This document shows positions 2,576 to 10,291 of a stretch of DNA of 15,315 nt, one piece after another. The DNA is from Cudoniella acicularis (Eukaryota; Ascomycota; Leotiomycetes; Helotiales; Helotiaceae). The stretch spans positions 1 through 15,315 of the forward strand of contig JAAMPI010001374.1 in the NCBI GenBank assembly GCA_013054445.1. The letters are read 5' to 3'. A model generated the notes under the pieces. The model had not been told where the DNA came from. It saw only the letters and a program-made list of their open reading frames with translations, and made no database searches. The position numbers were made by a program, and so were the translations under genes. How positions within the stretch are numbered: position 1 is the first letter of the stretch; each line of letters starts with the position of its first letter.

Positions 2576-3462
2576 ATGCCTCCACCCTCCGCCCTCGTCG
2601 TCCCCGCAGTGACGAAGCACACAGCAACTGTAATTATGGCCCATGGTTTGGGTGATACCGGCGCAGGTATGTTGATCATGGAGCAATATCTCTACAAATA
2701 TGCGGCATATTTGTCATAGTCTTGTCTTGTCATCGAGTTCGGGAGATCGAGCAGTGCTAATCCAACTACAGGTTGGGTATCACTCGCAGAGAACTGGCGT
2801 CGTCGCCAAAAGTTCCAAGAAGTCAAATTCGTCTTCCCAAATGCGCCTCAAATACCAATTACTGTGAACTTCGGCATGCAGATGCCAGGTTGGTATGATA
2901 TCGTAAGGCCCCGCAATGGAGTTCGTTGACACAGCTTTCTACAACCACGGTTGAACTCAGCTAACGATTTCCGTCCTAGACATCATTCAACGACCTTCAG
3001 GTTGGAGAAGACGAAGCAGGAATCTTAAAATCAAGGGATATCTTTCAAGCCCTGATCAAATCCGAAATGGATAGCGGCATCCCGTCGAATCGAATTGTCC
3101 TGGGTGGATTTAGTCAAGGCGGTGCTATGTCAATTTTTTCCGGCATCACCGCTCCTCAAAAGCTCGGCGGTATTTTTGGATTGAGTTGTTACCTACTTTT
3201 ACCCAACAAGATCAAGGAGCTCCTCCCAAAAGACAACCCAAATAAGGACACCCCTATTTTCATGGGTCATGGTGATAGCGATCCTCTTGTACTTCCAGCA
3301 TGGGGTCAGAAAACTGCTGATGTGCTGAAAAGTGGAGGATGGACGGTCAATTTGAAATTTTACGGAGGCCTCCAACACTCTGCAGATCCAACTGAGATTG
3401 ATGATGTGGAGAAGTACTTGAACGAAAGTATACCTCCGATCGGTGACAAGGAGAGTTTGTGA
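2576..3462 (+). CDS. APT1: Acyl-protein thioesterase 1 (APT1), palmitoyl-protein hydrolase
   Basis: Three exons: 2576-2666, 2772-2902 and 2980-3462, giving 234 aa. Introns are 105 nt (GTATGT...CTACAG, branch GCTAAT) and 77 nt (GTAAGG...CCTAG, branch GCTAAC). The enzyme is a cytosolic alpha/beta hydrolase that removes S-palmitate from proteins (EC 3.1.2.22). Family marks: VIMAHGLGDTGAGW near residues 19-32, PNAPQIPITVNFGMQMPGWYD (50-73 region, split by intron 2 just after), nucleophile elbow GFSQGG with Ser119, acid Asp175 in HGDSDP, and His207 in GLQHSAD. The triad is complete, and length and spacing agree with human APT1 (Ser119/Asp174/His208). No Cys follows Met1, so the Cys2 palmitoylation used by mammalian APT1 is absent. 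The stop is TGA followed by CTA G, with an open in-frame extension (separate entry). Confidence 0.95.
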
Positions 3463-3603
3463 CTAGCTGGGGAATCTTGGGTGGAGATTTATAAAGGCCC
3501 CTTGTTCCTGCTCGGGCTCATAGTTGCGGTCATAGCTGGATGGCTTTTAGTCAAAAGTGGTAAGAAGATACCAAGCGAGCAGAAGAAGCTCCACACGATG
3601 TGA
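3460..3603 (+). other. Candidate stop-codon readthrough extension of APT1 encoding a tail anchor
   Basis: The APT1 stop (3460-3462) reads TGA CTA G, the leaky-stop context established for fungal and animal readthrough proteins. In the same frame, 46 sense codons (3463-3600) follow before a second TGA (3601-3603). The extension starts LAGESWVEIYK, then has one hydrophobic helix of about 19 residues (GPLFLLGLIVAVIAGWLLV, codons 3496-3552), then a basic, polar tail with KSGKK and QKK. That is the layout of a tail-anchored membrane protein. Readthrough would give about 281 aa. Rival explanations: a 39-nt intron (donor GTATAC at 3428, acceptor CTAG ending 3466) that would remove the stop in frame, although 39 nt is very short; a fixed nonsense mutation in a once-longer gene; or chance. 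Confidence 0.65.
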
Positions 3604-4457
3604 CACACTGACGAGAGATATTTGCATTATAAATGCATACACACTGGTTTTGAGGTAACGATAGATTCACGAAAAGCGTTGGAACTAGAATTTCAAGAAA
3701 ATACCCTTCCATGTGGTGAGAAGTGTCCGAACTGATTTGAAAAACTGCTTCGTTGCAGAACTCTCATAAACAGATCCATCATTCCGCCCTCCATTTGACT
3801 TGTATCATTACTTCTGAGATTCGAGATCTTCCCTCTCGTGATAAGTTGGTCAAACAATTCTGATAGAAATCGTTCCTATTGGAATTTTTATTCCAACTAT
3901 ACACTATTCCTGCAAGTACAGTATTAATTCAAGGCCTCAATCATTCCACAAAAGATTCTATTGAGCTTCGCGTTGGATTAATAGCTCTCAACTGAGTAGC
4001 TTCGTCCTAGTATGCGTAAGTGCTCGACATAGATAGGCAGTGGTGTTGCAAAACTTTAGTGGGAATCTCTTCTCCTTTCCGTTATTTAGTCGCTCATAGG
4101 TCCGTGCATGAACTGCCATCCGAATACAACACTTCAAAAGAATGAACGCCATGTAGCTACTAGATATAATAAGAAAAGCATGTACATAACCCAGTGTAAT
4201 CTTTTCATATAATCTGATACCAAGATAATTTTGAAATTCATAGTAATTTAGGGATCTTAACTGTTATCGAAGCACGGGGTGTTTTAAAGCAAATTGCTTA
4301 TACTTACTAACGCTAATGAAAAATTACCAACCAGTAGTAAACTGCTTAGAATAGGAAAGTGCAATAATGGAAAGTAGCGTAAGTGCATAGAGAAAATCCC
4401 AGGTAAGCAGACAGTGTGGTTAGAGGCACTTAGAGTGACTAAGAGCTGTGGTGGAAG
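3604..4457. other. Intergenic, AT-rich, no gene seen
   Basis: Downstream flank of APT1. No ORF of note on either strand and no RNA gene recognised. A perfect 6-bp inverted repeat with 3-nt loop (TGCATTATAAATGCA) lies at 3623-3637, just after the second APT1 stop. It is short and AT-rich, so may mean nothing. The rest is AT-rich unique-looking sequence with many short TA-rich words, possibly old decayed repeat DNA, but I cannot identify any element. Confidence 0.5.
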
Positions 4458-6206: not shown

Positions 6207-6631
6207 TTTGGTGATGTGCCGACGACTGTGGTTAGTTGGTGAGAGATTGGCGTTGAATTGTCGTTGTTCGGCGTCACATTCAAAAGTCGCGAATTTCCTG
6301 TGTGGGAGGCGCTAAATTCTCGCTTGACAGGAAGGGCCTAGCGCGGCCCTAAGGCTGTGATGCCTCATTGCGATTTTGCAGCGTCTCAGCCGCATCAATC
6401 ACCTTAACAACCGCGGCATTTGCTTCTAGTAACGCGATATTGAGTCGTGTAGATGGATGGATGCTACGATTGATTTCTCGTACATTGACCCCCTCTAAGA
6501 GAGCCCTGGCGGTCTCAGAGCCAATTCATCACGTGACACGTCATCAACACCAAACCGCGAGAAGACCACTTTTATTGAGCAGAAATCCACTTTTCAAGTC
6601 TCCAAGCCCTCTTCAAAAATTCGGGTTCAAA
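6207..6631. promoter_or_regulatory. Divergent promoter region RPL24 / TRM44
   Basis: 425 bp between the two start codons. On the RPL24 side there is a CCCTAA (6347-6352; TTAGGG on the RPL24 sense strand), a telobox-like core of a kind reported in ribosomal-protein promoters of several fungi, next to AGGGCCTAG (6333-6341). Toward TRM44 there is a CCAAT (6521-6525) and a perfect TCACGTGA palindrome (6529-6536). No obvious TATA box, as is common for housekeeping genes. The region also contains an open frame continuous with TRM44 (see findings). Confidence 0.55.
6521..6536 (+). promoter_or_regulatory. CCAAT box plus TCACGTGA E-box
   Basis: CCAAT at 6521-6525 is followed three bases later by the 8-bp palindrome TCACGTGA, about 100 bp upstream of the preferred TRM44 ATG. 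CACGTG is the core site for bHLH factors (Cbf1/USF type), and CCAAT is bound by the HAP/CBC complex. Their tight spacing upstream of 6632 supports this stretch being promoter DNA and not coding. Function is inferred from the motifs only. Confidence 0.5.
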
Positions 6632-8143
6632 ATGCCTCATTCGACGATGATACCTGTGCCCGCCGACCCTGACTCTCTTCCGCCCCTAGAGGAGGTCTCA
6701 GGGACTGGTTGGACTCCGCTCTTCAAACATGAATGTTCATTTCCTCCTGAGATCTTCAGACAGGTTATGCAGAATCTCATCCGAAATCCCAATATCAATA
6801 CGAATCACCTCTTCCGTGCAGATATCGCTCTCGATGTCCCATTCAACGATGGAGATACTCACTTCGAGACGGAGATACCTCCGCGAATCACTCACTTCAA
6901 GAATCTCGATCTCAAAACCGTGATGGTTCGGACTATGATCCCAAGAAACATGCTCGTGGACAAGCCATTAGACCAAACATGCCTCTTTCATGAGCGTATT
7001 GAAGAATCGGGTGAAGTTTTATCTCTTGTGTCATACCTACCACACATATCTTCTGCTGCCGAATCACCATTCTATCATCCTGCCGTACGCGGGATAGGCT
7101 TTCTACACAAGTACTGCCCTAAATCGAAAGAAGGCACAATCTCAATTCATTACTCATTTTTCGATTTGGAACCTCGATCACCTAAGCTTGAACGGACTGC
7201 TTTACATTTACTTGCCGTTGTGCACAAGCATGGCCAAGGAAGCGCGGCGGGATATGTGAAGAGAGTACAGCACGATGTCATTCTCCCTCAAGCAACAGTA
7301 CAAAACACCTACGCACGGCTAAAAGCAAAATATGGTAAGGCATTATGTCAGGGATGGATTGAAGTCACGGATCCGACCAAGCACGTCTTTGAAGATCTTG
7401 CCATCGCTGCGTTCTTGATCGAATTATGGGCTGAGATGTACCATGGGAGGTCATTTCCAGGTTTCGTGGATATTGGCTGCGGTAATGGGCTGCTCATTCA
7501 CATTCTAATTGAGGAGGGATACTCAGGTTGGGGCTTCGACGCAAGAAAGCGAAAGTCGTGGGTAACATGGAGCCCGAAAGCACAAGATAATTTGAAAGAA
7601 CTCGTCTTGATTCCGTTTATAATACAGAGGGGACAACCATCCAAAGAAATTATCAACCCAGAACATCGATCAAAAAACACGGACGACCAAGAGGAAAATG
7701 CACAGAGCAAGCCAGGAACACATGATGGGATCTTCCCAACGGGTACATTCATCATCTCCAACCATGCTGATGAATTAACACCCTGGACACCAATTCTAGC
7801 CAATGAATCCGAATCCCCATTCTTAATGATCCCATGTTGCAGTCATGCACTGAGCGGCGCCAAGTTTCGAGCACCTCCTCCCAAGAACGCTGGGGGAGTT
7901 GCAAGTTCGGCATTTGCATCACTCTGTGCATGGGTGTCAAATATAGCCACTGACTGTGGATGGGAGGTTGAGAAGGAGATGCTGCGGATTCCAAGTACTA
8001 GGAATACGGCCTTGATCGGAAGGCGAAGAACGCTTAAATATGAAGAAGTCGATGTCAATGATGTTATTCGGAAATATGGCGGTGCAGCAGGATTTGAAGA
8101 AAGCTCATTGAAGCTCGTAAAGGGGGCAGCGAGGGGGCATTGA
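6632..8143 (+). CDS. TRM44: tRNA (uracil-2'-O-)-methyltransferase Trm44
   Basis: Intronless, 503 aa from the ATG at 6632 (context TCAAAATGCC). The family enzyme methylates the 2'-OH of U44 in eukaryotic tRNA-Ser using S-adenosylmethionine. The SAM-binding motif is FVDIGCGNGLL at about residues 278-288, followed by the Trm44-typical GYSGWGFDARKRKSW. Later come NHADELTPWTP (about residue 380) and PCCSHALSGAKF (about 398-410), both characteristic of this family. Length is similar to yeast Trm44 (567 aa). The open frame extends upstream to at least 6368, with another ATG at 6461 that would add 57 mostly basic residues. I prefer 6632 because CCAAT and CACGTG sites lie between the two ATGs. It is convergent with the coiled-coil gene downstream. 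Confidence 0.9.
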   Translation: MPHSTMIPVPADPDSLPPLEEVSGTGWTPLFKHECSFPPEIFRQVMQNLIRNPNINTNHLFRADIALDVPFNDGDTHFETEIPPRITHFKNLDLKTVMVRTMIPRNMLVDKPLDQTCLFHERIEESGEVLSLVSYLPHISSAAESPFYHPAVRGIGFLHKYCPKSKEGTISIHYSFFDLEPRSPKLERTALHLLAVVHKHGQGSAAGYVKRVQHDVILPQATVQNTYARLKAKYGKALCQGWIEVTDPTKHVFEDLAIAAFLIELWAEMYHGRSFPGFVDIGCGNGLLIHILIEEGYSGWGFDARKRKSWVTWSPKAQDNLKELVLIPFIIQRGQPSKEIINPEHRSKNTDDQEENAQSKPGTHDGIFPTGTFIISNHADELTPWTPILANESESPFLMIPCCSHALSGAKFRAPPPKNAGGVASSAFASLCAWVSNIATDCGWEVEKEMLRIPSTRNTALIGRRRTLKYEEVDVNDVIRKYGGAAGFEESSLKLVKGAARGH

Positions 8144-8938: not shown

Positions 8939-9877
8939 TTATAGAACATCAATGTTTCTCAGGCCACACCATCTGAGAAACGAATCCACCTTGCCGTTCG
9001 CAAATTCCTTCAAGATTTGGAGCTCATTCTTGAGGGTCCTCTCATTCTCCTCCAGTTCGGCGACTTCTACCTTGGTCTTCTCGAGCTCATCCATGAGGGT
9101 GCTCTCATTGTCCTTCAGGTCGACAATTTCCTCCTTGCTCTTCTCGAGCTCATCTTCTAGTTCGAGGATCTTCTTGGTCATGTGGGCCTCCTTGTTCTTC
9201 AGGATGTAGTTGGCTTGCTGCACAACCTGCAGCTCGATTTCGAGTCTGTTTGGCTCTCTGTGATGTGGCTCGGGGTTCTCTCCTCCAGCGTCGCGGTACA
9301 TGATCTCGAGTCTGAGTTTTCGGATTGTTTCCTGCTGGGCGTCGATCATGACTTGTTGTTGTAGAGCTGTTTGGCGTGTACCATTCCAGAAGTCTTCCAG
9401 AGTTTGGCATCTGCTGGTAATTTTTCGGATTGTCTCTTGTTGGTCATCGATCATGGCTTGCTGTTGTTGGGCTCCTTGGCGTGAGCCGTCCCACAAGCCT
9501 TCCAGCGATTGGTATATGCTGCTGAGTTCGTGGAATCTTTGTCGGTAGACCAAGTTCGCCCGGCTGTGCTCTTCTGCGAGTTCCAGTTGGGTTTGGGTGT
9601 CCAGGAGCTCTTGGCGGGTTTGGTTAAGTTCGTTTTCTGCTTGTTTGGCGGCTTCCGTAGCTAATCCTGAGCTGATGAGGATACTTTCTATGTAAGTGAC
9701 GAGTTCTGGGGACAGAGCTTGGGTGAGCTGGTTCCATTGGCTGAAAGCAGCCTCTTCCTCGGTAAAATCCATCTCGGCCGGGGCTGGGGAGACCGGTCTG
9801 GAGGTCGGAGGGGATTGAAGATCAATCAGATCAGTGTTTTTAAGAGTGGCAGCGCTGAAGTTGGAGGTGGAAGGCAT
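8939..9877 (-). CDS. Coiled-coil protein of unknown function with internal tandem repeats
   Basis: 312 aa, intronless, ATG at 9877-9875 after ACAACAAGA, stop TAA at 8941-8939. I do not recognise a named family. Residues 1-35 are Ser/Thr/Pro-rich and probably disordered. Residues 37-122 are helical and Gln/Glu-rich. Residues 125-194 are two adjacent 35-aa repeats, each with the pattern LE-x-x-W-(D/N)-G-(S/T)-R-Q and QQQxMID-x-QQETIRK. Residues about 210-292 form a charged coiled coil that includes two 21-aa (three-heptad) repeats at 242-262 and 263-283. The end has Trp and Cys (FLRWCGLRNIDVL). No signal peptide or membrane segment. It looks like a structural or adaptor protein, which is inference. 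The upstream frame is open to 10291 but has no ATG, and a TATA box at 10261-10268 favours this ATG with a leader of about 350 nt. Confidence 0.72.
   Translation of the reverse strand: MPSTSNFSAATLKNTDLIDLQSPPTSRPVSPAPAEMDFTEEEAAFSQWNQLTQALSPELVTYIESILISSGLATEAAKQAENELNQTRQELLDTQTQLELAEEHSRANLVYRQRFHELSSIYQSLEGLWDGSRQGAQQQQAMIDDQQETIRKITSRCQTLEDFWNGTRQTALQQQVMIDAQQETIRKLRLEIMYRDAGGENPEPHHREPNRLEIELQVVQQANYILKNKEAHMTKKILELEDELEKSKEEIVDLKDNESTLMDELEKTKVEVAELEENERTLKNELQILKEFANGKVDSFLRWCGLRNIDVL
9029..9154 (-). repeat. Coding tandem repeat, 63 bp x 2 (21-aa coiled-coil units)
   Basis: Residues 242-262 (DELEKSKEEIVDLKDNESTL...) and 263-283 (DELEKTKVEVAELEENERTL...) of the coiled-coil protein are imperfect copies in exact register: 63 bp, or three heptads. 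This implies duplication that kept the heptad phase. Confidence 0.75.
9296..9505 (-). repeat. Coding tandem repeat, 105 bp x 2 (35-aa units)
   Basis: Residues 125-159 and 160-194 of the coiled-coil protein are adjacent 35-residue copies sharing LE, W, G, RQ, QQQ, MID and QQETIRK at matching positions. 35 residues equals five heptads, so coiled-coil phase could run through both units. The DNA copies are clearly related (for example TTTTCGGATTGT in both) but diverged. Confidence 0.8.
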
Positions 9878-10028
9878 TCTTGTTGTTATACCGAAATTGG
9901 TGGGTTGGTGAGTAGGCTGAAGGTGTGCACGTGCGTCGGGGTTTGAAGCTGACTGTTTGAGTGGACCGGTGGTCGACGAGTTGTTTGGAGTTGGCGAAGC
10001 TTGAAGTTTGTTGGGGAAGTTTGGTGTA

Positions 10029-10171
10029 GTCGAAGGACCTTTGGGTTGAGGAAGTCGGAAGGTTGTCGAAATACTTTGAGGTTGATGAAGCTGAAGGTAG
10101 TCGAAGTAACTTTTGGTTGACGAAGTTAGAAAGTTGTTGAAGGATGTTGGTGTTGCTGAAGCTGGAATCTT
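10029..10171 (-). repeat. Degenerate 36-bp tandem repeats in a G-poor 5' leader
   Basis: Four contiguous units lie at 10029-10064, 10065-10099, 10100-10135 and 10136-10171 (36, 35, 36 and 36 bp). On the plus strand each starts GT(C/T)GAA and has GGTTG or TGTTG mid-unit followed by GAAG. A less perfect related unit lies at 9972-10009. They sit between the TATA box (10261-10268) and the ATG (9877) of the coiled-coil gene, so they should be transcribed as leader. The sense (minus) strand here is C/A/T-rich and very poor in G: about 28 G in the 300 nt 9901-10200, counted by eye. Confidence 0.65.
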
Positions 10172-10260
10172 GTTGAGGTGGTCGTTGGGTCTTTGGGGAT
10201 CTGCTTTCTCTGAGTCGAACTGAACTGGAGAAGAAAAAATTGTGAAGGAGGCCTTTAAAC

Positions 10261-10268
10261 TATTTATA
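10261..10268 (-). promoter_or_regulatory. TATA box of the coiled-coil gene
   Basis: TATAAATA on the minus strand, followed about 30-35 bp downstream by pyrimidine-rich TTCTTCTCCAGTTCAG, a plausible initiation zone near 10225-10235. This would give a leader of about 350 nt ahead of the ATG at 9877. Confidence 0.6.
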
Positions 10269-10291
10269 CTTTTTCTGCGTTACTAAGAGTT

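Follow-up and report, generated by a model that had tools for sequence, protein, structure and literature searches.

In the fungus U. maydis, the stop context UGA CUA can be sufficient for readthrough, and higher levels need downstream sequence (available sections of PMC4207609); for human genes, CUA G was described as the key determinant, and A or G directly before the stop as favourable in mammalian cells (available sections of PMC12233894). Tpi1, Art1 and Rpe1 of U. maydis and the human LDHB and MDH1 combine a UGA CU(A) context in a housekeeping enzyme with an extension that relocates a minor pool of the product, as far as the accessible text of PMC4207609 describes them, and the acyl-protein thioesterase gene APT1 of Cudoniella acicularis (Helotiales) resembles them in its stop context, its enzyme and the predicted effect of its extension. 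The C. acicularis genome assembly comprises 53.2 Mb in 1836 contigs, and the whole stretch of 15,315 nucleotides that was analysed is referred to here as the window. Its APT1 gene (G7Y89_g12710) is read from the forward strand and encodes 234 amino acids, and its translation matches the public protein P0001 (G7Y89_g12710, 234 aa) with 100% identity. Splice sites, translation and this identity define exon 1 (2576-2666) and exon 2 (2772-2902), and exon 3 (2980-3462, including the stop TGA at 3460-3462) was assigned from sequence, translation and the domain PF02230. Intron 1 (2667-2771) has a GTATGT donor, a branch-like CTAAT and a CAG acceptor, and intron 2 (2903-2979) a GTAAGG donor, a branch-like CTAAC and a TAG acceptor. 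PF02230 (Abhydrolase_2) covers residues 7-224 (profile positions 5-216 of 217) with 199.6 bits at a cut-off of 23, residues 3-228 of P0001 align with PDB chains that bear the name acyl-protein thioesterase 1, and the protein ends in GDKESL, the last codon before the TGA being TTG. At the intron-2 site, VRPRDT sets apart two metagenome-derived APT1 proteins, P0007 and P0008 (WYDIVEFGDL, WYDIVRPRDTVEFGDL), as if alternative donors had been used; intron 2 of the window gene starts with GTAAGGCCCCGC, which would translate to VRPR. Upstream of APT1, a 541-codon frame on the reverse strand (567-2192) matched PF08397 IMD weakly, its 22.0 bits falling short of the cut-off of 26.2, and may encode an Ivy1-like BAR-type protein. 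A 596-codon frame on the forward strand (6353-8143) matches PF07757 AdoMet_MTase with 128 bits and resembles a Trm44-type tRNA methyltransferase; a 446-codon frame on the reverse strand (8939-10279) is coiled-coil-like by eye and gave no Pfam match. RNA family searches at gathering scores returned no match in the window.

The APT1 stop lies in the sequence TGA CTA G (3460-3466), a high-readthrough context according to the accessible parts of PMC4207609 and PMC12233894, and the base directly 5' of the TGA is G. Past the stop, the same frame continues for 46 codons (3463-3600; LAGESWVEIYKGPLFLLGLIVAVIAGWLLVKSGKKIPSEQKKLHTM) to a terminal TGA at 3601-3603. It begins with LAGESWVEIYK, followed by the hydrophobic segment GPLFLLGLIVAVIAGWLLV (3496-3552), a putative transmembrane anchor, and by the basic tail KSGKKIPSEQKKLHTM (3553-3600), so that the segment would end 16 residues from the C-terminus of the extended form. 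Its 19-residue Kyte-Doolittle mean of 2.48 exceeds that of every other stop-to-stop segment of the window (1230 in six frames). Sums on the Hessa scale (no position weights) were -3.75 for the 17-residue core LFLLGLIVAVIAGWLLV and -0.78 for the 19-mer, by which membrane insertion is predicted to be favoured. The other two sense frames past the stop are broken, with hydropathies of -0.99 and -0.04, and the antisense side holds shorter frames, one with a hydropathy of 2.02. Within the segment, T occupies codon position 2 in 12 of 19 codons versus 4 and 3 at the other positions; as the enrichment is confined to position 2, the hydrophobicity does not merely reflect a T-rich stretch. No Pfam family was found in the extension, and its single match in the C. 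acicularis genome was the extension itself. A sequence-only reading had reported the TGA CTA G end, the open frame of 46 codons and the hydrophobic 19-residue segment with its basic tail; all were confirmed at the positions given above, and its recognition of UGA CUA as a functional readthrough motif agrees with the available text of PMC4207609.

From these features, the leaky stop of APT1 may give rise to a minor, tail-anchored form of the depalmitoylase, a reading that we hold tentatively and place appreciably below even. The main product would be the 234-residue soluble enzyme, and a few ribosomes would insert an amino acid at UGA-CUA-G and add the 46 residues. The extended form would then carry a C-terminal membrane anchor with the catalytic domain in the cytosol and the basic tail across the membrane or at its far face, so that the soluble pool and a smaller membrane-bound one would come from a single mRNA. 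Basic tails suit the mitochondrial outer membrane or the peroxisome, which suggests these as putative targets. A useful rate of readthrough, insertion of the tail rather than its degradation, the target membrane and maintenance by selection are all points that we infer.

The alternative that survives best, and that we put close to an even chance, is that an ordinary 3'UTR frame, hydrophobic by accident, lies behind a leaky stop, any readthrough product being a by-product that the cell removes. Such removal would fit the reported degradation of hydrophobic C-terminal extensions (accessible text of PMC12817085). The rarity of the coincidence was estimated from twenty 10-kb stretches of the C. 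acicularis genome, window excluded, with 18,275 stops; all stop codons rather than gene ends served as the null, since only 9 of 113 long frames met the coding filter. TGACTA was found at 53 and TGACTAG at 12 of these stops. Of all 18,275, 16 lead into a frame no longer than 120 aa that holds a segment of at least 2.478 (99 at 2.0 or above, 354 at 1.6 or above). Assuming independence and 15,000 genes, TGACTAG together with 2.478 is expected only 0.009 times, which argues against chance at the observed strength and full motif; the expectation is 0.038 for TGACTA with 2.478 and 0.24 for TGACTA with 2.0, and reaches 0.84 with the loose requirement of TGACTA and 1.6, a number that counts in favour of chance. 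Independence may, moreover, understate the rate, since 4 of the 53 sampled TGACTA stops precede a segment of at least 1.6, none of the 53 reaching 2.478. Two of these four, again in favour of chance, stand before a short frame (120 aa or fewer) whose hydropathy exceeds 2.0 (2.24 and 2.03); by this count, one or two genes in a genome could meet the 2.0 threshold. When the 138 nt were shuffled, 2.478 was reached in 0 of 2627 open shuffles and 1.6 in 2.0%; for 3463-3900 the corresponding results were 2 of 2092 and 6.3%. The motif, the frame and the segment, whose coincidence had been emphasised from the sequence, are thus all present, but an open frame of at least 46 codons follows 11% of all stops, so the openness of the frame adds little. 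The coincidence is rare for one gene, yet it was chosen after looking, and is suggestive but no proof; anyone reading through many windows could come across such a site.

Codon usage gave the tail a score equalled or exceeded by 47% of 11,176 open 46-codon windows. On synonymous codons alone it scored -0.045, the 15th percentile of 14,428 windows in a comparison of low power, and seven windows of APT1 exon 3 scored 0.018 to 0.060, all above the tail. The tail without codon bias counts in favour of a chance frame, but as codon bias is weak in the C. acicularis genome (296 windows of long frames average 0.017, the null -0.002), its non-coding-like character is mild evidence only. Predicted RNA folding at and past the APT1 stop was no stronger than in shuffles (z of -0.26, 1.84, 1.14 and 0.89). 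UGA CU was found at none of the four C. acicularis stops of PGK (TAA), Rpe1 (TGA TGA), GAPDH (TAG) and TPI (TAA), with last exons assigned by eye, and these genes therefore provide no positive control within the genome.

We were also interested in the C-terminal end of the homologous proteins, and compared the best 120 of 1732 homologues found with APT1 plus extension as a 281-residue query. The tail was absent from these 120 as part of an ordinary protein, the maximum query coverage being 84%, with the native protein itself at 83%. A search with residues 222-281 yielded 17 candidates, none at E <= 10, and one with residues 192-281 yielded 33 candidates and three proteins with 40-48% coverage, none with the tail, a coverage consistent with a match to the native end alone. 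A tail without homologue among the proteins compared is what a chance frame would give, but it does not exclude a conserved readthrough, because predicted proteins end at the stop. At the DNA level, the prokaryote collection gave six bacterial loci and the viral collection none. Most of the best 120 of 1732 homologues terminate at the matching place or within a few residues of it, and a stop shared in this way with relatives is an old one, not a recent nonsense mutation. The last residue is Leu in 73 of the best 120 (own protein included), preceded by Ser or Thr in 54 (SL or TL), while the linker before the terminal Leu varies in sequence and length. Among 26 homologues that we take to be Leotiomycetes from their species names, 18 have the terminal Leu; of the eight others, P0035 and P0102 are marked as partial, and P0020 and P0040 carry a replaced tail. 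This conservation of Leu before the stop argues against pure chance, and a Ser/Thr-Leu end over a variable linker may be a sign of constraint, either at the stop or beyond it. It may reflect either a free C-terminal motif or a constrained block running past the stop, the latter being what readthrough predicts. In the models P0020, P0035 and P0102 (Glarea, Mollisia, Hyaloscypha hepaticicola) the departure from the family is at or near LNE(R), and in P0040 (Sclerotinia borealis) the end is replaced after KES; alternative 3' splicing or model errors are possible explanations of these deviating ends.

If readthrough is real, the tail might also mark the product for destruction, the leaky stop then tuning or policing the dose of APT1 rather than its location. 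The motif evidence is the same as for a readthrough anchor, and in human cells hydrophobic extensions have been connected with degradation through BAG6 (PMC12817085, in the part accessible). We nevertheless regard such a degron as improbable, as one well-bounded segment with a basic flank would resemble an anchor more than a generic hydrophobic tail.

Alternative splicing that excises the stop in some transcripts and fuses a somewhat shorter APT1 to the tail appears about as improbable. Fungal peroxisomal isoforms are known to arise by alternative splicing as well as by readthrough (PMC9549241, in the part available), and in APT1 the removal of an in-frame GT...AG stretch of 39 nt (3428-3466, forward strand, GTATAC...GACTAG) would eliminate the stop; P0020, P0035 and P0102, the latter two labelled partial, diverge from the family almost exactly at the codon of the 3428 donor. 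This pseudo-intron is the best placed candidate of a scan for GT...AG pairs with donors at 3200-3461, acceptors up to 3500 and lengths of 36-250 nt, which gave 16 in-frame pairs. All 16, however, have donors with at most three of five consensus positions, and the sole branch-like site is GTGAC, unlike the CTAAT or CTAAC of the two real APT1 introns; the replaced tail of P0020 is, by eye, not similarly hydrophobic. A length of 39 nt is also very short for an intron of a filamentous fungus, and the stretch was judged unlikely to be spliced. Readthrough is the simpler route to the extended product, and the deviating models of relatives keep splicing alive at a low level.

A nonsense mutation or pseudogene was rejected, as most of the best 120 homologues stop at or close to the matching place and the PF02230 domain is complete, and so was an overlapping gene, as no frame of at least 80 aa overlaps 3463-3603 on either strand.

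Taken together, the observation is confirmed and its interpretation partly supported, a real minor isoform and a chance hydrophobic 3'UTR frame being of similar likelihood. The proposal of a minor tail-anchored APT1, already made from the sequence, stands insofar as nonsense mutation, an overlapping gene and splicing give no better account; the codon usage of the tail lends it no support, and no compared protein carries the tail.

How a soluble depalmitoylase gains access to membrane substrates is a live question. Human APT1 reaches membranes via a palmitoylated Cys2, and the animal enzymes thus carry their own lipid anchor. Animal APT1 and APT2 (LYPLA1/LYPLA2) belong to the same enzyme family as the C. 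acicularis protein, in which this Cys2 is missing; we know of no membrane tail in the animal proteins. A Cys within the first 12 residues is present in one of the best 120 homologues, and as the animal-type palmitoylated N-terminus is therefore missing, another route to the membrane would be useful. It is conceivable, though doubtful, that in Helotiales, perhaps in the wider Pezizomycotina, APT1 is a programmed-readthrough gene with a tail-anchored depalmitoylase as its minor isoform. Its Ser/Thr-Leu end, leaky stop and tail would then be conserved together as a single block, taking the place of the palmitoylated N-terminus found in animal APTs, and termination would set the soluble-to-membrane ratio. 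If a readthrough-made anchor is real, it would be a different solution from the lipid anchor of the animal enzymes, and would tie depalmitoylation to conditions that alter termination fidelity.

In the literature searched, which included few subscription papers, no described readthrough isoform of APT1/LYPLA1 was found. The U. maydis and human extensions contain a signal for the peroxisome and have been examined by experiment, as described in the accessible part of PMC4207609, whereas that of APT1 has a hydrophobic segment as its putative anchor. In Drosophila, transmembrane domains are predicted in eight readthrough extensions, to which the APT1 tail is similar in adding a predicted membrane segment; they derive from ribosome profiling in an animal, and APT1 is not among the eight in the available text (PMC3840789). 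Such predicted membrane segments in Drosophila mean that this kind of extension is already known. The class of mechanism is therefore not new, but the APT1 case would be, and, if it is true, UGA-CUA readthrough in fungi would supply membrane anchors as well as peroxisomal signals.
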